A stretch of 27,444 bases of DNA from a virus. The stretch's first letter is position 1; every line of letters starts with the position of its first letter. This document shows positions 2,816 to 27,444 of the stretch, in pieces. A model generated the notes under the pieces. The model was not told the DNA's origin. It made no database searches and saw only the letters and a list, made by a program, of their open reading frames with translations. The stretch lies in the IMG/VR virus record IMGVR_UViG_3300030380_005469, positions 1-27,444 of that record, one strand, 5' to 3'. The position numbers and the translations under genes were made by a program.

Positions 2816-3029
2816 CAAATACACGACTAATAAGCGCGTATATCGTGGCGTGCTGCTGATGTACGAAAAGCCCGAGCTGGTGCAGATGATAAAGGATAAT
2901 CAAAACGGAAACCTGGCACGCGTCGATCGACGAGGGTTTCAGCAAAACGAAATTGACGACGTGCTGCGCGCTCATCGCTGGGCGCAGTTACACAACAATA
3001 TTGCGGACAGAATAGAGGCAAATAAATGA
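2808..3029 (+). CDS. Small basic protein of unknown function (73 aa)
   Basis: I chose ATG 2808 (MANKYTTNKRVYRG) over an upstream in-frame start at 2787. The later start gives a compact 8-nt overlap with the preceding gene and a better N-terminus. The product is basic and helical, with RRGFQQNEIDDVLRAHRWAQ near residues 42-61, which could be a small helix-turn-helix-like segment. That is weak evidence. The stop overlaps the next start as ATGA (3026-3029), so the two genes are probably coupled. Confidence 0.7.
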   Translation: MANKYTTNKRVYRGVLLMYEKPELVQMIKDNQNGNLARVDRRGFQQNEIDDVLRAHRWAQLHNNIADRIEANK

Positions 3030-3316
3030 CGCATCCCTATCTAGAAACCGAACGCTGCGGCGATTGCTTGCGCAACAGCTATCGATACGAAAACGCAGGC
3101 GATTGCGACAGTTGCAACGGGCGAGGCAGACGCTACGCCCTGACGACTCGGCGCATCAACAAAGGCGAAAGCATACGCATCCACGATCTGCTCTTGCAGA
3201 AAGACGCAGAAGGCATTCTGCAGGGGCGTTTCGACCATTGGGCAAATAACCAATGGGAAACGATTAACAGCAATAACCAGCTTGCACGCTTGCTGGATCG
3301 AGCAAGGGCTAACTGA
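3026..3316 (+). CDS. Small zinc-finger protein (96 aa)
   Basis: The start ATG 3026 overlaps the previous stop (ATGA) and has the common SD block AGAGGCAAATA. The product carries two CxxC pairs, C11-C14 and C27-C30. The second reads CDSCNGRGR, like one half of a DnaJ-type CxxCxGxG zinc ribbon. The rest (residues 40-96) is charged and probably alpha/beta, with WANNQWETINSNNQ near the end. A zinc-stabilised fold for nucleic acid or protein binding is likely. The specific role is unknown. It lies immediately upstream of the recombination/replication block. Confidence 0.75.
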   Translation: MTHPYLETERCGDCLRNSYRYENAGDCDSCNGRGRRYALTTRRINKGESIRIHDLLLQKDAEGILQGRFDHWANNQWETINSNNQLARLLDRARAN

Positions 3317-3387
3317 TGATCGTTGCCGCTAATATTTATCTTGCCGTCATCGTCATTGCTGCGTTCGTCGCAGGGATGGAAGGCTAG
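3316..3387 (+). CDS. Candidate 23-residue hydrophobic microprotein
   Basis: ATG 3316 overlaps the preceding stop as TGATG and the frame runs 23 codons to TAG 3385. The product MIVAANIYLAVIVIAAFVAG-MEG is a single hydrophobic span, enough to cross a membrane once. The 3' end of this frame supplies the GGAAGG SD used by the next gene. It may be a true membrane micropeptide, or a reinitiation relay that carries ribosomes from 3316 to the GTG at 3390. The tight stop-start overlap argues for translation; the function is unknown. Confidence 0.45.
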   Translation: MIVAANIYLAVIVIAAFVAGMEG

Positions 3388-3389
3388 TC

Positions 3390-4418
3390 GTGTTTATCCG
3401 TTACGTGATCGGGCGCCCTACCGTGCCGCAAGAGCCTAAGATTTTAAAGGCTGGCGGCGTTAGCCGTGACGCTCGAAGGGACACGACGCTTGAACTGTAC
3501 TTGCGCGCTTGCGAATATGAGCAGGTAACGCCTAACGTTGATTATGTGCAGCACCTAAAAGCGCGCGACTCGATCGCCTGGCAATACCGGCTCGACATTT
3601 ACGCCGGCAAAGATCAGGTGCTCGCAGCCATGCAAGACGCCTTGCACGCACAAAACGGCATAAGCAAAGCTTACGACGATGTAAGCCTAGCGCGCAACGC
3701 TTGGGCGTGCGAGCGTTGCCGCTGGTCGAGTTACTGCGAAGGCGACCCGTTAGCGCGAGACGTTGACAACTGGCACGACGTAGAGAGAGCCAAGCAGCCA
3801 AGCGAAATTAAAATCGCCTACGGGCGAAGCCGGCGAACGCTGCGACGTGATCGCTTTGGTTACTGCTGCAGCCCGTCAGAACTGCGCGCCTTTATGACCT
3901 GCCCACGCTTGCATTGGCTAGAATACGTCAAGCGCATTCGCCAGGTGCGCACCGATATTAAAAGCTTGCCGATGCTGCTCGGCTCCATCACGCACGAAGC
4001 GCTGCGCGTGGCTACGGTGCAACGCAACGCTGATCTGCAGGTTGAAATTGAAATACTGATCGCCGAAATGATGCGAGAAATGCGTCTAGCGCCTGACGTG
4101 CAAGCTGCGATTGCTGACCCTGCGCAGGTGCGAGCGATAGCAGATCGCACGCAAGCCATGCACGCGCTGGCAATGCACGGTGTCGCTGAGGTTATCGAAT
4201 GCGAGCAACGCAGGGCAATGGTTTTGCCTGGCACGAAAAAATGGCTGCACGGCATACCTGACGCCGTGGTGCGTATGCACGACGGTCGTGTCGGTGTGGT
4301 GGAGTATAAGACAACAAGCCGATCTAAGGACCTGATGAAACTTGCCGACAAATACCGAACGAACCCGCAAACCTATCTCTATGCTGCGCTCGTCGAGCGC
4401 GGCCAATTAACGCTCTAA
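3390..4418 (+). CDS. PD-(D/E)XK (RecB/Cas4-family) Fe-S nuclease with apparently permuted module order
   Basis: The start is GTG 3390 behind GGAAGG. The 342-residue protein has the catalytic motifs of a RecB/Cas4-type nuclease: CSPSELRAFMTCPRLHW (160-176), GSITHEA with H202, GIPDAVV with D291, EYK at 305-307, and the QTYLY motif (Q327, Y331). It ends 11 residues after that motif. The segment that normally follows in this family is instead at the N-terminus: a KILKAGGVSRDARRDTT stretch (18-33), then ELYLRACEYE and the Fe-S cysteines C107, C110 and C116. Together with C171 these give the usual four cluster ligands in rotated order. It probably resects or processes DNA ends for the Sak4-like protein and ssDNA-binding protein encoded next. 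The family is firm; the permutation is my reading of the motif order. Confidence 0.85.
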   Translation: MFIRYVIGRPTVPQEPKILKAGGVSRDARRDTTLELYLRACEYEQVTPNVDYVQHLKARDSIAWQYRLDIYAGKDQVLAAMQDALHAQNGISKAYDDVSLARNAWACERCRWSSYCEGDPLARDVDNWHDVERAKQPSEIKIAYGRSRRTLRRDRFGYCCSPSELRAFMTCPRLHWLEYVKRIRQVRTDIKSLPMLLGSITHEALRVATVQRNADLQVEIEILIAEMMREMRLAPDVQAAIADPAQVRAIADRTQAMHALAMHGVAEVIECEQRRAMVLPGTKKWLHGIPDAVVRMHDGRVGVVEYKTTSRSKDLMKLADKYRTNPQTYLYAALVERGQLTL

Positions 4419-4436: not shown

Positions 4437-5222
4437 ATGGAGCGAATTGATTTAACGAAACCGCCAACGCAGGCAATGACCTTGTTGATTTACGGTCAGC
4501 CAGGCATAGGCAAAAGCACCGTCTGCGCGATGCTCGCAGCAGCAGCAGAGCAAGCAGGCGAAGGCGTCACGATGCTCGACAGCGAGCGAGGCTTGCTGCC
4601 CGCTGCTGTCGCTGCAGGCTTACGACAGAGCGAATTGCTAGCCGCTAGCGGTCAAGGCTCTGCGTTTGAAGTCTACAAGCGATTACAGGCGCTAATCACG
4701 CAACCGCAAGGGCTTGTTGTGCTCGATACTGTAACCGAGACTAGCGAAAGCATTTTGCGCGATCTAGCGAGCGACACAGGTACCGTGCAGATCCAGGCTT
4801 ACGGCGAACAAAAGCACCGCTTAGCGCGCATCGTGCGAGCGCTTCGAGATGCTGCTGGTGCTGGTACTTGCGCAGTAGCGACAGCCCAGCAAGATGCGCA
4901 AGACATTGAAGGGCTGCCGGGCAACTGGCACCCGGCGGTGCGCAAGTCGATGGTGACCGATCTAGTAAGTCAGTTTGACTGCGTCGCCAGGCTGCGACAG
5001 GTGCAGGACCACGAAAGCGAAGCGCTGAAGCTGGAAAGCGGCACACGCTATCTAGACTTTAGACCAACGCACCAGCAGGTTGCAAAATGTCGAACCGCAA
5101 GCGAGCTGTTCGCAGGGCGTGCCACGCAATGGCACATTTACCCTATGCGAAATCAAGAAGATGCAACGCAGCTATATGCTGCACTAAAGCGCCGAGCGGC
5201 GCAGAATAAAGGGGCAAAATAA
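4437..5222 (+). CDS. Sak4-like RecA-fold ATPase (phage recombinase/annealing factor)
   Basis: The start is ATG 4437 behind a near-perfect SD (AGGAGG). The 261-residue protein has an N-terminal Walker A GQPGIGKST (20-28, K26), an acidic MLDSERG block (46-52) and a Walker B LVVLD (93-97). It also has an EQKHRLARIVRALRD helix, typical of the short RecA-like AAA_24 ATPases found next to phage nucleases and ssDNA-binding proteins. Members of the Sak4 group promote single-strand annealing or strand exchange together with an SSB-like partner. The order nuclease, ATPase, DUF669-like protein and resolvase supports that role. A general DNA-repair ATPase is the alternative. The stop overlaps the next start as TAATG. 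Confidence 0.85.
   Translation: MERIDLTKPPTQAMTLLIYGQPGIGKSTVCAMLAAAAEQAGEGVTMLDSERGLLPAAVAAGLRQSELLAASGQGSAFEVYKRLQALITQPQGLVVLDTVTETSESILRDLASDTGTVQIQAYGEQKHRLARIVRALRDAAGAGTCAVATAQQDAQDIEGLPGNWHPAVRKSMVTDLVSQFDCVARLRQVQDHESEALKLESGTRYLDFRPTHQQVAKCRTASELFAGRATQWHIYPMRNQEDATQLYAALKRRAAQNKGAK
5189..5202 (+). promoter_or_regulatory. Stem-loop ahead of the ssDNA-binding protein gene
   Basis: GCGCC (5189-5193) pairs with GGCGC (5198-5202) around a GAGC loop, within the last codons of the ATPase gene. It is followed by AGAATAAAGGGGCAAAATA and ATG 5222. Its spacing to the SD matches the intergenic hairpin leaders further upstream, although here it lies inside coding sequence. Confidence 0.45.
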
Positions 5223-5695
5223 TGTCTAACAGTTGGGATGAATGGGAACAGAAAACGAAGACGGCTTTCGAGCCGTTACCGCCTGGGCAATATGTGGCGG
5301 TCATTGATAACGCGTCTGTTGAGTACAACGACAAAGGCGCAAGAACTAAGATAACGCTTAAGGTTGTCGAAGGGCAGCACAACGGTCGCTTGATCTGGGA
5401 AAGCTACCCGCACATTGACAAGTTCCGCTGGTTTGGTCGCATGGCTTGGGAATCGCTTGGCTTCCAGCATGTGCCCGAAGGCGACAGCATGGAACAGATG
5501 TTTTTGAGCATTAGCCGTGCGTTGACTGACTCGATCGGCAAAGCCGTGCGCGTCACGACCGATCAAAAGACAAGCACCTGGCAAGGTCAGGCACGCGTCA
5601 ACGTGATCGTACGCAGGCTGGAAGCTATGGCACCACCGCAGCAGCAGCAACAGCAGCCGCAGCAGGTGCCCGGCGGATATGATGCGCCATGGTGA
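5222..5695 (+). CDS. DUF669-like single-stranded DNA-binding protein with SSB-like C-terminal tip
   Basis: The 157-residue product begins after a TAATG overlap. Residues about 18-135 form a beta-rich domain with LPPGQYVAVIDNASVEYND (19-37), then KITLKVVEGQHNGRLIWE (43-60). This is the pattern of the DUF669-type proteins that act as phage ssDNA-binding proteins. A flexible glutamine tract (140-148, encoded by repeated CAG/CAA) leads to the final residues GGYDAPW. Bacterial SSBs end in an acidic tip with D-x-P-F that recruits partners; the DAPW ending looks like a variant of it. Neighbours are the annealing ATPase and a RuvC-like resolvase. The domain assignment is good but not certain. Confidence 0.8.
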   Translation: MSNSWDEWEQKTKTAFEPLPPGQYVAVIDNASVEYNDKGARTKITLKVVEGQHNGRLIWESYPHIDKFRWFGRMAWESLGFQHVPEGDSMEQMFLSISRALTDSIGKAVRVTTDQKTSTWQGQARVNVIVRRLEAMAPPQQQQQQPQQVPGGYDAPW

Positions 5696-6225
5696 TCCTT
5701 GGACTAGATCCAGGCTTTGCTAACCTTGGCTGGGCGTTGCTCGATTGCAGCAGCGCTCAGCCTCGGTGTCTAGCCGGCGGCGTGATTAGAACAAAGCCAG
5801 ACCGTAAGGTTGCGCGCTGTGACGATAACGTGCGTCGGTGCGGCGATCTGGCAGACGCAATTAACCAACTGCATAAAGAACACCGCTTTGCATTTATTGC
5901 GGCAGAGGCGCAGAGCTGGACAAGGCACGCAAACGCCGATCGTGCAGTCGCGCAAGCCTGGGGCGTGATTGCTGCGCTTAGCGAGGTTTACGGCTGCCCG
6001 GTGATCCAGATGCGACCGCAAGACGTTAAATTGAAAATTGCAGGCAGCCGCAGCGCGTCGAAAGGTGCTTTACAAAACATGCTTGAACATCAAGTCGGCA
6101 ACGCACGCGAAATGCTGCAGCAACTTGCCAAGTCACATCAAAATCATGCAAGCGACGCTTTAGGCGTTGCGCTTGCAAGTCAAACGCACCCGCTGGTGCA
6201 AACCGTTAAACGAATGAGAGGCTAA
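5689..6225 (+). CDS. RuvC-like Holliday-junction resolvase
   Basis: This enzyme cleaves four-way DNA junctions formed during recombination, or branches that would block packaging. The 178-residue protein has the RuvC RNase H-fold pattern: D7 in ILGLDPG (residues 3-9), E73 in IAAEAQSW, a QDVKLKIAGSRSASKGA segment (111-127) and a C-terminal HASDALGVAL with H153 and D156. These match the four acidic or His active-site positions of the family. The length is close to that of cellular RuvC. No RuvA or RuvB gene is present, as is usual in phages. It overlaps the ssDNA-binding protein gene by 7 nt. Its final codons provide the GAGAGGC SD for the helicase gene. Confidence 0.9.
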   Translation: MVILGLDPGFANLGWALLDCSSAQPRCLAGGVIRTKPDRKVARCDDNVRRCGDLADAINQLHKEHRFAFIAAEAQSWTRHANADRAVAQAWGVIAALSEVYGCPVIQMRPQDVKLKIAGSRSASKGALQNMLEHQVGNAREMLQQLAKSHQNHASDALGVALASQTHPLVQTVKRMRG

Positions 6226-6227
6226 CC

Positions 6228-7502
6228 TTGACACCTAATGAGGCAAACGCCCGGCAAGCGGAGCTTGGCTTGCTGGGGGCTCTGATGCTGGCTACGAAGA
6301 TCGACCCAGCAATAACCGAAACACTAACAAGCAACGATTTTGCAGACGCTCGGCACGCAGCAATCTGGCGTGCAATCTGCCAAGAGGTGCGAAGCGGTGG
6401 CGAAGATGCGCCCAGCTTAGTCGTCGTCGATTGGCTGCGACAAGCCGGCGATCTAGAACTTGCCGGCGGCTTAGAATACGTCGACAGCTTTAACAATCAC
6501 ACGATACAACGCAATTACGGCAGCGCCGCACAGTGTGCGCACGCTGTTAAACAATGCTCTAGGCTGCGCAGAATCGCCGCTAACGCAAAAGCAACGGCAG
6601 ACGCCGCCGAAGGTTACGCCGAAGGCTCAACGGCTGCCCTAATCGAACTGCAGCAATCGCTAGCAGCGCTGACCAATGACACGAAAAGCGAAACCGTCAA
6701 CGCCTGGCACGCCTTGACCTATGATCTTGAGCAAACCTTTCGCCCTGGCGTGCGCACGGCTACACCGCTCGATCAATATATGCCGCTTTCGCCCGGTCGC
6801 ATGTTTGTTTTAGGCGGTCGCCCCGGTCATGGCAAAACGACGTTGACGCTGCAGATTGCTTTGTCGCTGCTCAAGGCAAACCCTGGCGCACAAACGTTGG
6901 TGGCGAGCTGCGAAATGACAGAACCAGAACTAAGCCTAAAAGCGCTGTGCTGCTTAGAGGGTCGCAACTTTATTGATCAGGTGCGCAACAATAAAGAACA
7001 AGGGCTAATTGCTGTTGCGCACGCTGTGCAAGAGCACGCCGACACGTTGCAGCGGTTGCACCTAAAACCGACGCGCAGCATGGACGCTATTATTGCAGAG
7101 GCGCACGCTTTACACCGAACGCAACCGTTGACTTGCGTGGTTGTTGACTACCTAAGCGCAATGGACGCGCCAGGCGGTGGCAATCACGACACGCGTACGC
7201 GTGAGGTTGGCGCTGTGTCTCGATCGTGCAAAGCGCTGGCGCAAGCTTTAGACTGCATTGTTTTGGCAGCGTCACAGCTTAACCGTGGCGCTAAGGACAG
7301 CAGCAAGCCAACGCTTAAATCGTTGCGTGACAGCGGCGAAGTTGAACAAGACAGCGACGGCGTCGCATTGTTGCACCGACCAGACCACGACGACGACGAC
7401 GCAACAGCGCAATTGCTGATTGCTAAAAACCGCTGGGGAGAGTTAGCAACGATCAGCTTAGAACCTGATCTAGCTAACCACCGTTTTCAATGGGGCTTTT
7501 GA
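6228..7502 (+). CDS. DnaB-like replicative helicase
   Basis: The start is TTG 6228, with the common SD GAGAGGCTAACC. This places the DnaB N-terminal domain (AELGLLGALM, 11-20) right at the beginning as expected. The C-terminal RecA-fold core has Walker A GGRPGHGKT (196-204, K203) and CEMTEPEL (228-235). It then has Walker B VVVDYL (304-309), SQLNR (349-353) and a DSGEVEQDSDGVALLHRP stretch (368-385), all in DnaB order. The 424-residue length is slightly below that of cellular DnaB. It unwinds DNA at the fork as a hexamer. No phage primase, polymerase or helicase loader is visible, so it probably works with host primase and polymerase III. Confidence 0.92.
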   Translation: MTPNEANARQAELGLLGALMLATKIDPAITETLTSNDFADARHAAIWRAICQEVRSGGEDAPSLVVVDWLRQAGDLELAGGLEYVDSFNNHTIQRNYGSAAQCAHAVKQCSRLRRIAANAKATADAAEGYAEGSTAALIELQQSLAALTNDTKSETVNAWHALTYDLEQTFRPGVRTATPLDQYMPLSPGRMFVLGGRPGHGKTTLTLQIALSLLKANPGAQTLVASCEMTEPELSLKALCCLEGRNFIDQVRNNKEQGLIAVAHAVQEHADTLQRLHLKPTRSMDAIIAEAHALHRTQPLTCVVVDYLSAMDAPGGGNHDTRTREVGAVSRSCKALAQALDCIVLAASQLNRGAKDSSKPTLKSLRDSGEVEQDSDGVALLHRPDHDDDDATAQLLIAKNRWGELATISLEPDLANHRFQWGF

Positions 7503-11410: not shown

Positions 11411-13668
11411 TAGATCCACTCCTTAGCATTATCACCGCCTGCGCCTAGCGTATTGTTGGCGTCGGATAGCCACAAATAAGCCACTTCGTCAGCCGTCGGC
11501 TGCAAGCCTGGTCGGCGATTGCCTGACACGGCGTCAAGCGGTGGCTGCGTGCTTGGTGCGCTGCCGAACGTGCCGTAGTCTCTTGGCGTCATAATCTCGC
11601 CGACCAAAGGCGCAGCCGTTGCGCTAATCGTAATCTGCGCACCTGCGCCAATGCTTGTAACTTCGCCCGTCCACGTTACAGCGCCGGTATCTTTAGTATA
11701 GCCGTGTATTGCCCAGCCGACTGCAAAATATTCGTTTTCGTCAGCGTCAGCGCCGCCAGCTTTCAAACCTGACACAAGCCGGCTACTTGCTGCAGCCGTA
11801 AGCGTTAACAAATATTGACCACCGCCAAGCGCTGTAACTGCTGTGATAGCACCAGCCGGTGCGAAGTATCCGCCTGCGCTGTTGCCTACCGCCTCGGCTG
11901 TGATGCGCACTAAGCCGCTTTCTAGATCTGACTCTACGCCTGTCACAAGCGTTGCAACTGATACGCCTTGACCGCCTTTGGAGTCAGGCAGCCGTGCGTT
12001 AGTGACGCCTGCCGTATCACCGACGCGCACCAGGTGCTGCGTCCAGTCATGCTCAAGCGCAAACTCTGGTCGTGGCGTGTTCCATCGACCAAGGATTGCC
12101 GCAAGCTGCTCTTCGGTTGCTTCTAGTTCTTCAATCGTCGTTGGCTGCCGAAACCACGTTGGTGCAAATTCGTAATTGTCGCCGTCGTTATTTTCTGCCG
12201 TGCTAACGCCTGGTATATTCATGGTCAGGCGGTGCTCTTCGTCGATCACGTCATAATTGCCCTTAAGCACTATGCGCGTCACGATGCGACCGCCGATCCG
12301 CAACTCTTCGCTAGCTGTTGCTAGTAAGCTACTGTCAGTTAGTTGGTGGTCGCAGTTCTGCGTCGTGACGGCGTAATGCACCTGACGCACAGTCACCAGT
12401 CCGTCGCTGTCAATGTCAACAAACATATCGAGCAAACTTAGTTCGCGTTCTAAAATATCAAGCAGCAGCTCGCCGGGCTCGATTGAAATTTCAAAATCTT
12501 GTATGTCGCTTAGCAGGCGCGTTATTTCTAAGTCATTTACTAAACTCGACGGAATACCTGCGCCGAGCTGTGCCTGTCCGTTGCCAGGCAGCAAGTCATA
12601 GCTACCGTTTGACGTGTCACCTAGTCGGCTTGTCATTAGCTTTAAAACAACCTGATCGGCACGACCTCGCACCGTAATGCGTGGGCTTAGTTCTTCGCCT
12701 ATCCCGAAAGGCTGCCCACGGTTGCCGTCAAGCGTTGATATAGTAAAGCCGCTTTGTCCGTTATACGGGAAAAGGTACGCATCGGGCACGTTTGGACCTG
12801 TGAACTGCTCGCCTATGGCGTTGCCGTGCCGCTGCCTGTGCGTCAATATCTGATCGCTCGAAACGTAGACAGACGGCACCAGATGAAACCTTGCACCGTC
12901 AAGCGCTGCGTAACGATCGCCAACGACTAACAAGCCCTCGCTTGTTGTCGGCACGCGTGGCGCTGTGTAGCCTGCCGGGTCTGCAACCTTGATCGGTCCT
13001 AGCCCTCTGCCGATCGGCTTATTGAAAAAGCCAAGAGCGTCTTGCATTGGCAGCGTCCACACGCCGTCACGAAATGACGGGATGCCGTCAACAGCATAAA
13101 CAGCTGCTAGCCGCTCGTCGCCGTTAGGGTAGATCAAATATTCTTTAACTAAGCGACCGATAAAGCTTTGAGGTGATGCGCCGCAAGGCGTGCCGATAGC
13201 GTGACCGTACGGGTCGCTTTTGTAATCGCCAACGCCTGACGCACGCGTAACCGTTAGCGCGTCGTGATCTGCTGCGCCGGCGATGTTTGTTACTGTTACC
13301 GTCTCTGCGCCTACGTGCAGATCGAAAGGCACAGCGCCAAGGGCTGCAGTTAGCTTCGCGCCATCGCCTAGCCTGACCTTGAGCGTTGTTTGTACTTGGT
13401 CGGCTTCTTCAAAGAGAAACACCTGCACGCTGTAACCTGGCGCAAGCAGTTGTTGCACCGCCAGCGTATTGACTAGCGTCACTTCGACACCTGCTAGCGT
13501 CTTGCGTGTGCTCAACGGGTCGAGTTGCGAGCCTACACTAGTCAAACCTGCCAGCGGATACGTTGCGCCCGCTGCAGAGCTAAACGCCACAGCATACGAT
13601 CCAGACGCCACGCGCATCTCGACCGTCAAGCTGTGCACCGTGCCGGCTGCTTGCGTTTCGTAGGTCAA
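11410..13668 (-). CDS. Tail hub / baseplate protein (752 aa)
   Basis: The start is TTG 13668, overlapping the previous stop as TTGA, with an AGGAG SD 9 nt upstream. No ATG or GTG lies close by. The 752-residue product is the largest in the genome and mostly beta-rich. It has an N-terminal segment SLTVEMRVASGSYAVAFSS, a central acidic stretch (DILERELSLLDMFVDIDSDG) and a C-terminal region with repeated short strands and a QPPLDAVSGNRRPGLQPTAD linker. It sits directly after the distal-tail candidate, where siphoviruses encode the tail hub or tail-associated protein. No enzymatic domain was recognised. Role assigned from gene order and size. Confidence 0.7.
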   Translation of the reverse strand: MTYETQAAGTVHSLTVEMRVASGSYAVAFSSAAGATYPLAGLTSVGSQLDPLSTRKTLAGVEVTLVNTLAVQQLLAPGYSVQVFLFEEADQVQTTLKVRLGDGAKLTAALGAVPFDLHVGAETVTVTNIAGAADHDALTVTRASGVGDYKSDPYGHAIGTPCGASPQSFIGRLVKEYLIYPNGDERLAAVYAVDGIPSFRDGVWTLPMQDALGFFNKPIGRGLGPIKVADPAGYTAPRVPTTSEGLLVVGDRYAALDGARFHLVPSVYVSSDQILTHRQRHGNAIGEQFTGPNVPDAYLFPYNGQSGFTISTLDGNRGQPFGIGEELSPRITVRGRADQVVLKLMTSRLGDTSNGSYDLLPGNGQAQLGAGIPSSLVNDLEITRLLSDIQDFEISIEPGELLLDILERELSLLDMFVDIDSDGLVTVRQVHYAVTTQNCDHQLTDSSLLATASEELRIGGRIVTRIVLKGNYDVIDEEHRLTMNIPGVSTAENNDGDNYEFAPTWFRQPTTIEELEATEEQLAAILGRWNTPRPEFALEHDWTQHLVRVGDTAGVTNARLPDSKGGQGVSVATLVTGVESDLESGLVRITAEAVGNSAGGYFAPAGAITAVTALGGGQYLLTLTAAASSRLVSGLKAGGADADENEYFAVGWAIHGYTKDTGAVTWTGEVTSIGAGAQITISATAAPLVGEIMTPRDYGTFGSAPSTQPPLDAVSGNRRPGLQPTADEVAYLWLSDANNTLGAGGDNAKEWI

Positions 13669-14447
13669 GAGACGTAACTCCTAGAATCAAAACCAAACGT
13701 AAAAAACGGGAATCCGTCGATGCGACGAGTTGGCGCAAAGTCGGCTGACCCATCGAGCACCCAGACAGCGTCAGTTGTGCGCGTTGTTTTGTCTAAACAA
13801 TATTGCCATTGTGCGCCGTCGCTGCAGTCTTCAAACCAACGCTCGAAGGCGTCGGCGTCGTGCGTCGTTGCTGTCAACGCTGCGCCGCTATGGAAAACGC
13901 TAGCCTCTGGAACGTCGGTAAACTCAAAGCGCGTTGACAGGTGCACGCCACGGCGTACCGTTACGACGCGCCCTGACACGCTAACGGCTTGCGCTGATTG
14001 CGCAACGCGTCGGCGTAGATAGCCAGAGCCCAACGGCGTAGGGCTTGCCCATGTGCCAAGCGCTGCTTGCGGTGCTGTCGTAACTTGTGCCGCTACAGTG
14101 TCGACGCCTTGACTAAAGCCAAAGCGATGCAAGTCAAAAGTCGTTGCGGCGTCAGATCCCAGAATGCGCAGCGTATGCCCAGCGCCAACGTCAATAACAA
14201 CGCGCCAGGCTGTTGCATCCAGCGTAACCGTTGCAGCAGCTAGCGCAGCGTCTTGCGCTCTTATGTCTGTTTGCAGCACGGCGAGCAGATCGTTTGCTTC
14301 GCCATTGTCAGCCACAACGCCACTAGTCAAACCACCGCCGACCGTGTGCGTAAACTGCACAGCGCCACCGCCAACGTCATACTCAAAACGCACGTTTCCA
14401 AGCGTCTCTAAAACTCGAAAGATTGCCGGGCTTGCTGCAATAGCCAT
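13665..14447 (-). CDS. Distal tail protein candidate (260 aa)
   Basis: ATG 14447 follows the tape measure stop directly. The 260-residue product is beta-rich, with VRFEYDVGGGAVQFTHTVGG (19-38), a LRRRVAQSAQAVSVSG region and a C-terminal domain holding FERWFEDCSDGAQWQYCLD and an aromatic end (GFPFFTFGFDSRSYVS). The location between tape measure and hub is where siphoviruses encode the distal tail protein that caps the tube. Sequence alone does not prove this. Confidence 0.65.
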   Translation of the reverse strand: MAIAASPAIFRVLETLGNVRFEYDVGGGAVQFTHTVGGGLTSGVVADNGEANDLLAVLQTDIRAQDAALAAATVTLDATAWRVVIDVGAGHTLRILGSDAATTFDLHRFGFSQGVDTVAAQVTTAPQAALGTWASPTPLGSGYLRRRVAQSAQAVSVSGRVVTVRRGVHLSTRFEFTDVPEASVFHSGAALTATTHDADAFERWFEDCSDGAQWQYCLDKTTRTTDAVWVLDGSADFAPTRRIDGFPFFTFGFDSRSYVS

Positions 14448-16438: not shown

Positions 16439-16891
16439 CTAGCCCAGCCCGCTGCGAAACAGTGCTCGCGCTTGATCGGCGTCTACTAGGTGAGCCTGCA
16501 CGATTGCGCTGTAAGCTTCCCAGAAAATACCCTCAAGCGCGAGCGCCTCCAGATCGTCAGCGTGCAACGCATCACCCTCTAACCGCAACGGCTCGCGCCC
16601 CTCGATTTCTCGAAGACTAAAGCCGACCACCTCACCAGCAACTTGCAAAATGCCCTCTTTGAACTTGCCAAGCTTCGCAGCGTCAGCAACAGGATCATCG
16701 CTTGTTCCATCTTCTAGCCTGCTCTCGATTGCAGCCAAACCTTTGCGCAGCGACGTGTCCCGCCCTAAGATCGACGACCACCGACCAGCAGGAATAAACG
16801 CCAAGCGCGCACGCTTGCCGCTTTCTAGTTCAAGCCAGTCGGTCAACTCGTCGGCTGTCTCTGGCGTAATGTTGTCTAGCGCTTCGCTCAT
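16439..16891 (-). CDS. Tail assembly chaperone (G-like, 150 aa)
   Basis: ATG 16891 overlaps the tail tube gene's stop (ATGA). The acidic 150-residue product begins MSEALDNITPETADELTDWL and is mainly helical in its second half (DDLEALALEGIFWEAYSAIV). It lies between the major tail protein and tape measure, the fixed position of the first tail chaperone in siphoviruses and myoviruses. The chaperone coats the tape measure during tail assembly and is not in the virion. The last 44 nt of this frame overlap the open part of the next frame, and the codons CTG-TTT-CGC near its end offer a slippery +1 site. Confidence 0.75.
   Translation of the reverse strand: MSEALDNITPETADELTDWLELESGKRARLAFIPAGRWSSILGRDTSLRKGLAAIESRLEDGTSDDPVADAAKLGKFKEGILQVAGEVVGFSLREIEGREPLRLEGDALHADDLEALALEGIFWEAYSAIVQAHLVDADQARALFRSGLG
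16456..16459 (-). other. Candidate +1 ribosomal frameshift site (TTT C)
   Basis: In the G-like chaperone frame the phenylalanine codon TTT (16459-16457) is followed by C. A +1 slip places the same tRNA on TTC, a full match, and moves translation into the second frame (next codon GCA 16455). The sequence TTT-CGC resembles the UUU-CGU shift site known from influenza PA-X. The fusion product would be about 259 residues. A second option is the GGG-C stretch at 16450-16447. Confidence 0.5.
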
Positions 16892-18237
16892 AACAGGTGA
16901 ATGCGTGCCGTTGCTGTGCCGTGGGTCGGGCGGAAACCTCGACCGCTCATTTCAAGAGTAGCTAGACCGCCTTCTTCGCCAATGGTCGTGTTGCACTGAG
17001 CCGCCGGGATCTCGATCACCACCGTATTGCCTGGCGTGTCGCCAAACTGCATGAGCACAGCGAAAACTTGATTGTTCTGAAACGATAGCGCCGCACCGTC
17101 GCCAAAGGTTTGCGAGCCACTAGCCAACAGCTCGGCGGTTGTGCCGTCATGGTAAAGCCGCATCTCGGTGGTGCAGTTGTTCTGCACAGCAACAAAACCT
17201 TGCCGCCCGTTCGTGCCGGTTGCTGCCGTGCGTGGCTGCACGTCGGTCGCCGTGTCAAAGCCTGCGCTGATCGCAGTGGCTACGGCAACGCCTGTTGTAG
17301 CGCCAGGCGTAAAGTTGCCGCTACCATCGACGCCCCAACTATCGTCAGCGCAGATAAGAACACGAGCGCCACGGGTTGAAACCGGACCCAGATTAGGCGC
17401 AGTAAATGTGCCAAACGTTGGCGCCCCTGCTGCATTTTGGTCTGCCGTCCATGTTTGTGCTTGTGCTGAATAGGTCGCCAAAAGCAAGCCGTCAGCGTCG
17501 CTAAACGCAACCGAGCCCATGCAGCCTTGAAACAAGCGGTCAATGCCTGAATCAGCTAGCCGACCATGCACCGTAATATGCGCACGCTCGCCTGCGGTTT
17601 GGTCAATCGGATAGGTGCGCATCCCGTAAATGTCGTCACCAGCTACCGGTGCATCGCTAAAGCCGCCGGTCATATTTGCAGCGCTGTCGCCTGCTAACGT
17701 TACTGTGTCGCCGACGGCATCGACAGCAACGATCGGCGCTGTTTCCATTTTGCCGGCAGCGTTGACCCAGCCGACAACGTCGCCAATAGCGTAACCAACA
17801 ATGCCGACACGCCCAACGCCAAACTGCAAAACCCAACGCGTAGAACCTGCAATAACGTCTTCGCCTTGAATGTTGCGCTTCGTGCCGCCGGTGGCTTGCT
17901 CAATCAGCATATCGTACTGCGGCGCAGCCGTGGATGCGTTGACAGCGTTAGCAGCGCCGCCGCTAAGATCAAGCCCTCGCATGTAGAAAGCCAGCGACGG
18001 GCTAGCGTCTTTGTTGCCGCTGACACCTGCCGGCGTCTCGCCGTCACCACGCTGACCCGTGATGGCAATTTGCTCACGCGTAAACTCCATGGTCGTCGCG
18101 CTAGTAATTTCAAGGTCAATATAACCTGGCGGCACCATATCAGCAGCAGCATACTTTTCAGATAAATCCCAAGCCGTAGAGCCTACAACTGCGTTAATTT
18201 TGCCGATCTGCACGCGGTTAATTCGCTTCAGTGTCAT
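16888..18237 (-). CDS. Major tail (tube) protein candidate (449 aa)
   Basis: I start this at ATG 18237 (MTLKRINRVQIGKIN), just after the previous stop and with an AGGGAG SD. The frame extends upstream to 18318, but only through codons overlapping the preceding gene. The product has an N-terminal tube-like stretch (IDLEITSATTMEFTREQIAI) and a long Gly/Ala/Thr-rich beta middle. Its C-terminal part ends with a beta domain (EIPAAQCNTTIGEEGGLATL). It precedes the tail chaperones, the standard location for the tail tube. At 449 residues it is larger than a minimal tube protein, so extra surface domains are likely. Confidence 0.75.
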   Translation of the reverse strand: MTLKRINRVQIGKINAVVGSTAWDLSEKYAAADMVPPGYIDLEITSATTMEFTREQIAITGQRGDGETPAGVSGNKDASPSLAFYMRGLDLSGGAANAVNASTAAPQYDMLIEQATGGTKRNIQGEDVIAGSTRWVLQFGVGRVGIVGYAIGDVVGWVNAAGKMETAPIVAVDAVGDTVTLAGDSAANMTGGFSDAPVAGDDIYGMRTYPIDQTAGERAHITVHGRLADSGIDRLFQGCMGSVAFSDADGLLLATYSAQAQTWTADQNAAGAPTFGTFTAPNLGPVSTRGARVLICADDSWGVDGSGNFTPGATTGVAVATAISAGFDTATDVQPRTAATGTNGRQGFVAVQNNCTTEMRLYHDGTTAELLASGSQTFGDGAALSFQNNQVFAVLMQFGDTPGNTVVIEIPAAQCNTTIGEEGGLATLEMSGRGFRPTHGTATARIHLL

Positions 18238-18239
18238 TT

Positions 18240-18695
18240 TTACAACTCCCTCCGCACGCGTGCGGCTAATTCTATTTCTACAGAGTAAGCAGCCGTTGGC
18301 AATTGCGTAATGCGCCACGGTGCAGGTTTTAGGCTAAGCAGCCCGGTGTTTGTGTAATCGTAATTCATACGCAGCAAAGCGCCCATAATGCGCTCTGCGT
18401 CGTCGGTCATTGCGTCAGAATCTTTGCCTATGCTGCGCTGGTAGCGTCCCCGCTCATAGAAAATTTCGACCAGATAGGTGCGGTCAATATAAACGATACC
18501 GCCTGCACCGATTGCCGGCGCATCGGCTAAGCGCTGCAGGTTGCCGCCTGTAGCCAAAACCGAAAAGCGACGCCAAGCCTGGCGCCCTAAGTCTTCGATG
18601 CGGTCCCATTCAATAAGCGCAGGCGTACCGCTTAGCGTGGTGCCTGCAACTGTAGACGCAATCAGTGTTCGTATAGGATCGCTAGGCCAAGTCAT
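18240..18695 (-). CDS. Tail terminator / tail completion protein candidate (151 aa)
   Basis: ATG 18695 overlaps the preceding stop (ATGA). The 151-residue alpha/beta product has WRRFSVLATGG, YLVEIFYERGRYQRSIGKDS (about 74-93) and a final strand YSVEIELAARVRREL. Small proteins of this size, just before the tail tube gene and with this long strand plus charged loop, are usually the tail terminator (gpU-like) that caps the tube and joins it to the neck. The assignment rests on position and secondary-structure pattern, not a recognised motif. Confidence 0.65.
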   Translation of the reverse strand: MTWPSDPIRTLIASTVAGTTLSGTPALIEWDRIEDLGRQAWRRFSVLATGGNLQRLADAPAIGAGGIVYIDRTYLVEIFYERGRYQRSIGKDSDAMTDDAERIMGALLRMNYDYTNTGLLSLKPAPWRITQLPTAAYSVEIELAARVRREL

Positions 18696-19836: not shown

Positions 19837-20018
19837 TCTTTCGCCTTAGCTTTCTTTTTGGCTGGCGCCCGCTTCTTCGGTGCAGGCTTTGCCGGTACCT
19901 TCTCAACTTCGATCAGGCGCAAAATTTGCCAGCCATTTGCTTGATATTCTGCCACGTCAGCAGCAGCGACAAGCCTTTGCCTGCCGCTACCGCTGACCAT
20001 GTAAGCGTCAGCAGACAT
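19833..20018 (-). CDS. Small protein with basic Lys/Ala/Pro tail (61 aa)
   Basis: ATG 20018 overlaps the major capsid stop as TAATG. The 61-residue product has a compact N-terminal part (YMVSGSGRQRLVAAADVAEY, then GWQILRLIE) and a strongly basic tail (KPAPKKRAPAKKKAKAKD) like a histone tail. A small domain with such a tail directly after the capsid gene may bind DNA inside the head or act as a minor head protein. The basic tail is plain in the sequence; its role is inference. Confidence 0.7.
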   Translation of the reverse strand: MSADAYMVSGSGRQRLVAAADVAEYQANGWQILRLIEVEKVPAKPAPKKRAPAKKKAKAKD

Positions 20019-20965
20019 TATGCCGACTGCACGCAGACAAGCTGGTGACTCACCCTAGCAGCGCCGCCGACCATCGCAGCCACGGCGTTCATGCCCCCCG
20101 TGCCTATCAAGCACGATTCTTCCATTCGGATGTTCGGTGCTTTCTGCAGCACGAAACCGATCGAGTTGTCGATAGCAACTAAAGCACCTTTTCGCGTGTT
20201 GCCTGCAGCGAGCTGCACGCCGGTTTGCAATTCAGTGCCTGACCCTGCAGCGTTTACGAACGTGCTAGTTGCAACGCCAGCCGAAGAAATAACCGGCACG
20301 CCGTAATAACCGAACGCAACACCGTTACCGCTAAGCGCTGGAAACGTTGCCAAGATGTCTTCTCGGCTAATATAGTTCGACGAAGCGCGAACAGCAGCAC
20401 GAAGCGCAGACACCTGCGCCGGATGCAACACAAACGCAAGCTGTCCAGGCGTACCAAACGACTTGCTTAGCTTATTGTTGCCTTCGGCAATCTCAAGCGC
20501 CAGTTCTAGCGTTTGAATATCCATTGCTGCAGGGTTGCCGCCGCCGTCAGTGCTGGCTGCAACTTCACGAACGCCGGCTGTGCCGAAAGTGTCGTCGAAG
20601 GTTGCGCAAACCAAAGCGTTGGCACGATCGCCAAGAGCTTTGCCTAAAGCGCCCGACAAGTTGATCCAGTCAACCTCTTGCGTTTCCATTGCGAGGTTAG
20701 TGATCTGAATCGCAGGCACCTCTTGCGGCGTTGCAACGATGCGCACGCTCTCAGGCGTGACAGTCGAAGGTGTAAGCGCTGCGCCTTCGGTAACGCTAAC
20801 CGCTGCTAAGTTGTTAAGTTCTGCAAACTTATAAGCAACAAAACCCTGTTGCACGTTGCAGATGTCGAGGAGGTTAGCCTGATCGCCCATGCTTTGCTGC
20901 AAGACGCCAGACATTAGCTCGTGAGGGATTAACCCTGCTAAGCTGCTTGATGTAGTGGCTGACAT
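20018..20965 (-). CDS. Major capsid protein (HK97-fold type)
   Basis: ATG 20965 has an AAAGGAT SD. The 315-residue product has the make-up of an HK97-fold capsid protein. It has a short N-terminal arm, a long central helix region (MDIQTLELALEIAEGNNKLS), the strand LAFVLHPAQVSALRAAVRAS and a GYYGVPVISSAGVATSTFV stretch typical of the P-domain. The C-terminus is Gly/Ala-rich. It follows a separate scaffold gene, and no maturation protease gene is visible, so the scaffold is probably released without cleavage. It is the expected most abundant virion protein. Confidence 0.88.
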   Translation of the reverse strand: MSATTSSSLAGLIPHELMSGVLQQSMGDQANLLDICNVQQGFVAYKFAELNNLAAVSVTEGAALTPSTVTPESVRIVATPQEVPAIQITNLAMETQEVDWINLSGALGKALGDRANALVCATFDDTFGTAGVREVAASTDGGGNPAAMDIQTLELALEIAEGNNKLSKSFGTPGQLAFVLHPAQVSALRAAVRASSNYISREDILATFPALSGNGVAFGYYGVPVISSAGVATSTFVNAAGSGTELQTGVQLAAGNTRKGALVAIDNSIGFVLQKAPNIRMEESCLIGTGGMNAVAAMVGGAARVSHQLVCVQSA

Positions 20966-23109: not shown

Positions 23110-24666
23110 CTACGCCTCGCCGTTGCCTACGATGCCTAGCGCCGCTTCGGCTAAGCCTTGCCCTGCTGGTCGTATCTGCTGGCGGTTGGTGTCGATGTTT
23201 GCCGCTAGCCTGTCTTCAGCTTCTTGCTCGCTAATGCTCAACGCTCGCGCCATAGCCTGCGCAGCGGTTAGCCAGTTTTTGCTTACGTCGTGATCGAGCA
23301 CGCGCCGCTGTGCCTCTTCGTCGCTTGGTATTGTCGTTGGTCCCGGTCGCCAGACTAAACGCATTGTTGGGTCTAGCGGTGTGTCGCCTGTCATTGGCGC
23401 GTAGGTGTTCCAAGTAGCAAGCGCAATTTCCCAAGCGTCGTCTTCCTCGATGCGCTCGAACCGATTTATCGACTGTGCGCGTGCTAACTCGCTTTCTAGA
23501 TTCTCAACCTTGAGCGCCACGCCGCTAAGTTGCGGTCTGTTCTTCGGCGCCCAGCTTGACGGTGGCAACCCTAGACGCTGCGCTTGCTGCAGCAAATAGT
23601 CTTGCAGCAACTCGACGTGCTCGGAAAGTCGGCTGTCTGCTGTGATGCTCTGCAAGCTTTCGCCCTCTTCGAGCACGCTGACACCGCCTGGCGTGATGTT
23701 TAGCGCGCCACGGGCTCGCTCGGTGTCTAGCGCTGTCGCAACGTAAGAGCCGTAGCCGCTCGTCTGCGCTCGCATGTTTATATCACACCAAGCGCTATTG
23801 ATTGCGTCTTGACTCTGCAGCAGGTCAACTGGCGGTCGAGGATAGACTACGCCGTGCCCTTTCTCGCGCTGCACCCAGATCATCGGCAACACCGTGTTGC
23901 CGTCTGCGTCTTTGATCGGTGCCGTAAAATCCATGGCGTCAGGTAATGCGCCAAGTTCAAGGCTACCATCTTCTCGCACGACCACAGCTTGCCAGTCTTC
24001 GCGACCGTTTTCATCGACGCCGCGCCAATAGGCTAGAAAGCGTCTGTTCTCTTGATTGTATCGCACACCCTTGTCTGTCGCTAACTCGATAAGCACGGCG
24101 TAGGCTGCGCTGATGTCGTCTGGTCGGTCTACGTCAGGCACGATGTGCACTAGATGCGGCTGCACAACGTTGCACTCTATGCGGTTGCGGAAGGTGTTCC
24201 AACTGTAGAGCATAAGCCCAGCGCCAAACAGATGCACCGTGCGGTCCAACCGTTGCCATACTTCCCAATAGGCTGCGTCTCGCTGCAGCTTCTCAAACGC
24301 TGCAATCTGCGCAGGGTCTTCGACAGCTTCGCCGCTTTGCTCGTCCATCAGCGTGCGCGCTGCTGGCGTCAAATACACGGTGGCTTGCTGGTCGATCCAG
24401 CGACGCAGCACAGGCAGCACCATGTTCGTCGGAAAGCGACGGAAGGTTTTCGGAAACTGCTTTTGCAACTGCGCCGTTAAGCCTTCTTGCTGTTCGCCTA
24501 AGTAGTAATCGTTGAGCATTTCGCAAGCGTGGCGGTAGCCGTAGGGTCGCCATTCGCTGCTCAACTCTAAGATCTGCTTTACCCAGTCGGCACGCGTCGT
24601 TATCGCTCGCTGCGATATGTCGCGCATCAACTGCTGCGCTGGTCCGTTGATTAGATCGAAATACAC
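23110..24666 (-). CDS. Portal protein (518 aa)
   Basis: The start is GTG 24666, whose G is the last base of the terminase stop (TAGTG), a one-base overlap. The 518-residue size fits a portal monomer; twelve form the ring through which DNA enters and leaves the head. Features are a helical N-terminal part with YRHACEMLNDYYLGE, and a central region VDLLQSQDAINSAWCDINMR followed by the QTSGYGS stretch. The helical crown is acidic and Gln-rich (SISEQEAEDRLAANIDTNRQ). Location between TerL and the minor head gene is the standard order. Confidence 0.9.
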   Translation of the reverse strand: MYFDLINGPAQQLMRDISQRAITTRADWVKQILELSSEWRPYGYRHACEMLNDYYLGEQQEGLTAQLQKQFPKTFRRFPTNMVLPVLRRWIDQQATVYLTPAARTLMDEQSGEAVEDPAQIAAFEKLQRDAAYWEVWQRLDRTVHLFGAGLMLYSWNTFRNRIECNVVQPHLVHIVPDVDRPDDISAAYAVLIELATDKGVRYNQENRRFLAYWRGVDENGREDWQAVVVREDGSLELGALPDAMDFTAPIKDADGNTVLPMIWVQREKGHGVVYPRPPVDLLQSQDAINSAWCDINMRAQTSGYGSYVATALDTERARGALNITPGGVSVLEEGESLQSITADSRLSEHVELLQDYLLQQAQRLGLPPSSWAPKNRPQLSGVALKVENLESELARAQSINRFERIEEDDAWEIALATWNTYAPMTGDTPLDPTMRLVWRPGPTTIPSDEEAQRRVLDHDVSKNWLTAAQAMARALSISEQEAEDRLAANIDTNRQQIRPAGQGLAEAALGIVGNGEA

Positions 24667-26991: not shown

Positions 26992-27444
26992 CTAGCCCTT
27001 GACGATCTTAGCCCACGCCTTGCGTAGCCTCGTGTGATAGCCGTGCTTTGCATAGGCTGGTCCGTTGTACAGGCGAGCTAAGCCCGTCCAGTCGATCGGC
27101 GTTTGATTTGCGGCGTAGCGTGCTCTTGGGTTAGCTGCGAACCATTGCGCAACCAGCTTGTTGCTAATGCTTTCCGGGTCATCGTCAAACGCCTGAACGG
27201 CTGCGATCGGGTCACCGTTGTACAGATCAAGCAGATGCGATCCGAGCACCTGAAATAAACCCCAACTCGTCGACTTTATCGCTGCTTCTGCGTCTAGGCT
27301 TGCGGCATGATCGAAGGCGGCTCTATTCGTCTCGCTCGGCTCTGTGCTCCAGACGTATTTAGCCCTTGTGTAGGGCACTTTGCTGCGCAAGTCTGGCGCT
27401 AAGCGCAGGAAGATGTGCGGCTCGAAGCGTACAGCGGCAGGCTT
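26992..27444 (-). CDS. Endolysin, C-terminal part (DUF3380-type N-acetylmuramidase domain)
   Basis: The frame is open from the right edge (27444) to TAG 26992 without a needed start codon. It reads KPAAVRFEPHIFLRL from the edge, then SLDAEAAIKSTSWGLFQVLG, and ends with WTGLARLYNGPAYAKHGYHT and a basic helix. This is the body of a DUF3380-type muramidase: an FEPHIF block, then SWGLFQ, then the YNGP block. It continues exactly from the N-terminal part at 292-1, whose last codon AAG (Lys97) is the same codon as 27444-27442. The full enzyme has 246 residues. An internal TTG at 27390 is not a start. Confidence 0.92.
   Translation of the reverse strand, partial: KPAAVRFEPHIFLRLAPDLRSKVPYTRAKYVWSTEPSETNRAAFDHAASLDAEAAIKSTSWGLFQVLGSHLLDLYNGDPIAAVQAFDDDPESISNKLVAQWFAANPRARYAANQTPIDWTGLARLYNGPAYAKHGYHTRLRKAWAKIVKG
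27441..27444. repeat. 4-bp terminal overlap with positions 1-4 (GCTT)
   Basis: The last four bases equal the first four. Overlapping them restores the endolysin reading frame through the motif VESNGKPAAVRFEPH; simply abutting the ends would shift the frame. This supports a circular molecule of about 27,440 bp. Confidence 0.75.

Follow-up and report, generated by a model that had tools for sequence, protein, structure and literature searches.

A probable natural circular permutant among the RecB/Cas4-like exonucleases of phages

The nucleases AddB and Cas4 need for their integrity a cluster (the "staple") that is formed by one N-terminal cysteine together with three C-terminal ones, and a related nuclease bears zinc instead (PMC3466216). 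The phage exonucleases of PHROG 1218 and PF12705, such as those of Pseudomonas phage Lebethron (XPB67147.1) and Bacillus phage BSTP12 (QRI44520.1), have a conserved head cysteine and a C-x2-C-x5-C triplet, and are encoded just 5' of a Sak4-like gene. The Sak4 protein from phage HK620 works with its single-strand DNA-binding protein (SSB) in annealing single strands (PMC5928155). A natural circular permutation has been described for another prokaryotic nuclease domain, the HD domain of Cas10, which differs in fold and family from the enzymes considered here (PMC3150331).

Here we analyse a gene in a stretch of 27,444 nucleotides from the IMG/VR virus record IMGVR_UViG_3300030380_005469 (hereafter, the window). 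On the sequence comparisons presented below, this gene very probably encodes a phage exonuclease of the RecB/Cas4-like type that has undergone natural circular permutation and whose unrotated form is usually encoded beside Sak4-type annealing genes. The encoded protein has in common with the PHROG 1218/PF12705 exonucleases both segments, the catalytic residues, the four cysteines and the place of the gene; it differs from them in that the segments are exchanged, the old termini are fused and the new termini lie before the last core strand, and PHROG 1218 covers no more than the head of the permuted members. With Cas4 (TIGR00372; Sso0001, 4ic1) it shares the catalytic head and the four-cysteine scheme, but it scores 48.3 on TIGR00372, under the cut-off of 65, and has extra tail helices in addition to the rotated order. 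The nuclease domains of AddB and AdnA, which contain the iron staple with one head and three tail cysteines, align with a model of a conventional (that is, unrotated) homologue over the whole domain; the window protein differs from them in lacking an attached helicase and in its order.

The features of the locus are given in Table 1. The gene starts with a GTG codon, and the position of the start is common to the homologues despite the use of ATG, GTG or TTG. The segment that has moved to the N-terminus contains the core strand that normally follows the QxxxY helix, the ILKAGG/DTT stretch, two helices and the cysteine triplet, and the head segment has the motif order SPSE...CPR...GxxTH...GxxD...ExK...QxxxY. 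All the motif positions given in the original prediction were correct (ILKAGG..S..DTT at residues 18-33, the triplet, CPR, GSITH, GIPD, EYK and QTYLY), as were the end of the chain 11 residues past Y331 and the single intact frame with its own likely Shine-Dalgarno sequence. The Gln of QxxxY is replaced by Gly or Ala in the relatives L022, L068, L014 and L027, which retain the Tyr and the set of H, D, E and K.

Table 1. Positions of the permuted nuclease gene, its parts and the genes downstream of it in the window
Feature	Position	Strand	Basis
GGAAGG, likely ribosome-binding site of permuted start	3378..3383	+	read from sequence; 6 nt 5' of GTG
Circularly permuted RecB/Cas4/AddB-type nuclease, 342 aa (very probable)	3390..4418	+	intact ORF; PF12705; homologues likewise permuted
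Moved tail segment, residues 1-116	3390..3737	+	hhalign, tblastn
C107-x2-C110-x5-C116, three predicted cluster ligands	3708..3737	+	conserved in permuted homologues
Linker, residues 117-158, old C-terminus to old N-terminus	3738..3863	+	C116-C171 spacing
Head/catalytic segment, residues 159-342	3864..4415	+	PF12705, PHROG 1218, hhalign
C171 of CPR motif, predicted fourth cluster ligand	3900..3902	+	family conservation
H202, catalytic GxxxH-type motif (GSITH202)	3993..3995	+	invariant in permuted alignment
D291, predicted metal ligand (GIPD291)	4260..4262	+	invariant in permuted alignment
E305-Y-K307, (D/E)xK half-motif	4302..4310	+	E and K invariant in permuted alignment
Q327-T-Y-L-Y331 (QxxxY)	4368..4382	+	Tyr kept in family, Gln not
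Sak4-like single-strand annealing protein	4437..5222	+	PHROG 124 E 1e-22
DUF669-type single-strand DNA-binding protein	5222..5695	+	PHROG 378 E 4.3e-10; PF05037 E 1.4e-4
RuvC-like Holliday junction resolvase	5689..6225	+	PHROG 159 E 3.5e-19
DnaB-like replicative helicase	6228..7502	+	PHROG 19 E 6.6e-63

Viewed through Pfam and PHROGs alone, the protein is a nuclease that ends after the QxxxY helix and has an unassigned N-terminal part. Positions 3-172 of 247 of the PF12705 profile cover residues 161-338 only (E 2e-19, 70.9 bits, against a cut-off of 22 bits), and residues 161-336 match positions 11-186 of 364 of PHROG 1218 (exonuclease), whereas conventional members span about positions 8-349. 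A family matching the whole protein collinearly was not found in Pfam, NCBIfam, PHROGs or PADLOC. Full-length tblastn against phages gave nothing at E 0.01 because the halves are diverged as well as swapped, and splitting the query solved this. When queried alone, residues 1-127 matched phage exonucleases over residues 9-70 (tblastn; Pseudomonas phage STP12, E 5e-4), including the Lebethron 'exonuclease' and, weakly, the 'Cas4 family exonuclease' of Bacillus phages, and the matched stretch lies in the C-terminal part of these exonucleases (Lebethron 199-263). Against individual conventional sequences, the N-terminal half shows modest similarity (34-46% over 50-65 residues).

The relationship is clearer in profile-profile comparisons (hhalign) between seven permuted and nine conventional proteins. 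Residues 1-125 match the conventional tail with E 1.3e-11 (residues 9-119 to residues 199-319 of the Lebethron exonuclease), and residues 150-342 match the conventional head with E 2.2e-10 (Lebethron 17-184); the separate searches proposed in the original prediction thus lead to the tail and the head of one nuclease family. The unrotated whole protein gives two matches in swapped order, with scores of 78.5 and 73.9, whereas the protein rotated at the linker gives one end-to-end match of 288 columns with a score of 141.5 (E 1.3e-19). In a scan of all rotations, only cuts placed in the linker raise the score, which then goes from 73.9 to 141.5. For the conventional protein, the reciprocal scan has its peak with a cut at about residue 182-208; the maximum score of column-shuffled controls was 22.7 (200 shuffles). 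In addition, an HMM of the conventional proteins matches all eight permuted proteins twice, with the order swapped, in a HMMER domain search, and the reverse search recovers conventional tails. The circular permutation proposed in the original prediction is supported by these results, in that rotation restores a single end-to-end match and about doubles the score.

The joints agree with this reading. In the eight conventional proteins for which a reliable measurement was obtained, the QxxxY Tyr and the conserved Pro in the motif after it are 24 residues apart, and in the permuted proteins the residues after the Tyr plus those before the Pro, which was placed by alignment of permuted with conventional proteins, add up to 23-25. 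The chain is cut after the QxxxY helix and before the strand that follows it, and a core strand has therefore moved to the N-terminus; on our reading, this is the last strand. As proposed before, all four predicted cysteine ligands are kept in rotated order: three as C-x2-C-x5-C, which is present in all permuted homologues that cover the region and has the same spacing in Lebethron (C-SW-C-DFAPL-C), and one with the CPR-type motif, C171, which aligns with the head cysteine of conventional homologues and is kept across the permuted family. C107, C110 and C116 precede C171, against the usual order of head cysteine first and triplet last, which was found in all of the about 30 conventional homologues checked. 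The equivalents of C116 and C171 are 54-57 residues apart in eight permuted proteins; the counterpart of this spacing, calculated from the conventional tail plus head, is mostly 35-84 residues.

AlphaFold2 modelled the conventional homologue L035 with confidence (pLDDT 89.8, pTM 0.85), and along about residues 1-321 the model matches AdnA (Z 17.5), AddB (15.5), ACE1 (14.7) and Cas4 (12.1). The tail thus belongs to the fold and is no add-on. For the permuted protein, AlphaFold gave a model of moderate quality (pLDDT 61.2, pTM 0.56); it was built from ten sequences, with conventional fragments left out of the alignment (MAFFT misplaced the head fragment), and residues 99-184, including all four cysteines, have a pLDDT below 50. 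Its tail elements are E2-8, H34-43, H50-61, E65-71 and H74-95 and its head elements H162-168 ... E265-271, E292-296, E301-308, H315-323 and H326-340; in the L035 model the corresponding elements are E192-201, H226-235, H240-252, E258-264 and H269-284 for the tail and H6-14 ... E117-129, E137-149, E154-162, H169-173 and H175-188 for the head. The structure prediction suggested earlier as a check thus yields, at a pLDDT of 61, an order of helices and strands that is a rotation of that of L035. A fold search with the whole permuted model gave weak matches (best Z 6.3, to the Cas4-family protein ACE1, and also to AddA and AdnA) that cover the catalytic half only. Among solved structures, the best sequence match is 4ic1 (E 4.6e-7).

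Eight permuted proteins from several metagenomes, with 88% to about 33% identity to that of the window, all have their segments swapped. The identities are 88% for L001, 76% for L020, 54% for L022, 36-39% for L027 and about 33-35% for L014, L024 and L025; L068 is 54% identical to L022, and partial permuted copies are present on the IMG/VR contigs L002, L003, L012, L017, L018 and L023. The L027 gene (1164-2372) encodes an Ala/Glu-rich insertion of about 35 residues between the DTT motif and the next tail helix. For those Sak4 relatives whose upstream sequence was available, the nuclease encoded there is permuted. Peptide-pattern scans of genome contigs revealed no relative; with L022 as query, no permuted relative was found in phages (three weak partial matches) and nothing in plasmids, and L027 gave one weak partial match in phages. 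In a tree of 39 rows, containing the rotated permuted proteins together with conventional ones, the permuted proteins form one clade (100/100) with one change of order, and the permutation therefore has a single origin on this tree. The branch leading to the clade is long, so which conventional protein is its closest sister is uncertain.

Tandem duplication with trimming and fission followed by fusion are both accepted routes to circular permutation (PMC3320104). That the rotation arose by fission of the gene and re-fusion of its parts in the other order, which concerns the route only, is possible, although we would not call it probable: no split halves were seen. Neither was a tandem intermediate, and each of the nine permuted records searched contains one copy of the gene. 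We therefore make no firm choice between the two routes.

No variation is seen at the catalytic H202, D291, E305 and K307 across the permuted alignment. The whole-gene dN/dS is about 0.07-0.25, with the tail similar to the core, and the linker reaches 0.4 in more diverged pairs; these values are approximate, as dS is near saturation in several pairs. Where this could be tested, the permuted proteins are under purifying selection in their rotated order. It is conceivable that the rotation is real but that nuclease activity has been lost and the protein has a structural or DNA-binding role instead. The missing QxxxY Gln in the four relatives mentioned above would fit this view, but the invariance of the catalytic residues and the low dN/dS of the core argue against it, and we consider it improbable. 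A pseudogene reading was also considered and rejected.

It is very unlikely that the protein consists of an ordinary nuclease head, with its tail lost, to which an unrelated cysteine-bearing domain was added at the N-terminus. Such a view may draw on the detection of the head alone by Pfam, and on a weak match of residues 19-87 to PHROG 4630 (primase; E 0.015). However, the N-terminal residues (9-125) correspond to the C-terminal region in members of this nuclease family, at the E value of 1.3e-11 given above, and residues 1-105, from which the cysteines are excluded, still match the conventional tail with E 1.8e-10 in the profile-profile comparison. Single-sequence BLAST concurs for all permuted proteins tested, and the cysteine spacing is the same. 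Of the outcomes that would have contradicted the original prediction, neither an unrelated domain at residues 1-125 nor, in the family libraries searched, a full-length collinear family was encountered. The window being a metagenome-derived virus record, one might suspect that two gene pieces were wrongly joined during assembly or binning, but this is ruled out by the same order on independent contigs from several IMG datasets (99 to 33% identity), by purifying selection across the joint and by the conserved order of the flanking genes.

Returning to the circular permutant, its surroundings suggest what it does. The gene order nuclease, Sak4-like, SSB-like is found in the complete permuted loci examined, followed by RuvC-like and DnaB-like genes as far as the contigs reach, and in Lebethron and BSTP12 the nuclease gene likewise lies directly 5' of a Sak4-like or RecA-like gene. 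Based on this operon context, the protein is likely the exonuclease partner of the Sak4-type annealing protein: it would resect phage DNA ends to single strands, which the Sak4-like protein and the SSB would then anneal.

Several other features of the region were observed. Just 5' of the nuclease gene, positions 3026-3316 encode a small protein with paired CxxC motifs that has a counterpart likewise 5' of the nuclease gene in L001 and no clear family match, and positions 1077-1994 encode a D12-class/type II adenine methyltransferase-like protein (PF02086 E 1.2e-8; PADLOC MTase_II E 5e-29). An ORF 3' of dnaB in L068 (7348-8232), which starts with an SGGKDS-type motif and is PAPS-reductase-like by eye, has no counterpart at the same place in the window. 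The large ORFs of the structural region at 23110-24666, 20018-20965, 16888-18318 and 13665-14447 have no PHROG match at E 0.001, so known families cover this phage group poorly. One endolysin gene, whole in L001 and L003, spans the window ends (26992-27444 and 1-about 650, minus strand), and the contig is therefore probably a complete circular or permuted genome of 27.4 kb; when the ends are joined, the frame KPAAVRFEPHIF results, although a frame shift lies immediately upstream of it, and an end repeat of 16 or more bases was not found in the window.

We propose that a linker of roughly 55 residues, adjoining the cysteine cluster, connects what were the N- and C-termini, and that the chain would adopt the normal AddB/Cas4-type nuclease fold. 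The one head and three tail cysteines would bind a metal cluster, possibly with zinc as in the related nuclease (PMC3466216), that pins the two ends together. If the old ends are linked and a distant loop preceding the last strand is opened, the fold and the active site would stay unchanged, and this may have been tolerated because the staple already sets the old termini side by side.

The titles, abstracts and selected openly accessible papers covered describe no permuted member of the RecB/Cas4/AddB branch, and the word stem 'permut' is absent from the Cas4 phylogenomics paper and two superfamily surveys. The permuted family also serves as a warning, in that its members look like nucleases with a truncation and an unassigned N-terminal domain in collinear profile searches. 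Judging from the retention of the core active-site residues and the four cysteines, this nuclease from a family of uncultivated phages would be a case of a widespread nuclease fold that has been re-wired in nature and is still in use, a natural experiment in which a core strand of this much-used fold is shifted between the chain ends with the catalytic residues intact. The rotation turns a cluster that bridges far chain ends into a nearly local one, and the permuted family thereby makes it testable whether the iron staple serves only for holding the ends together.
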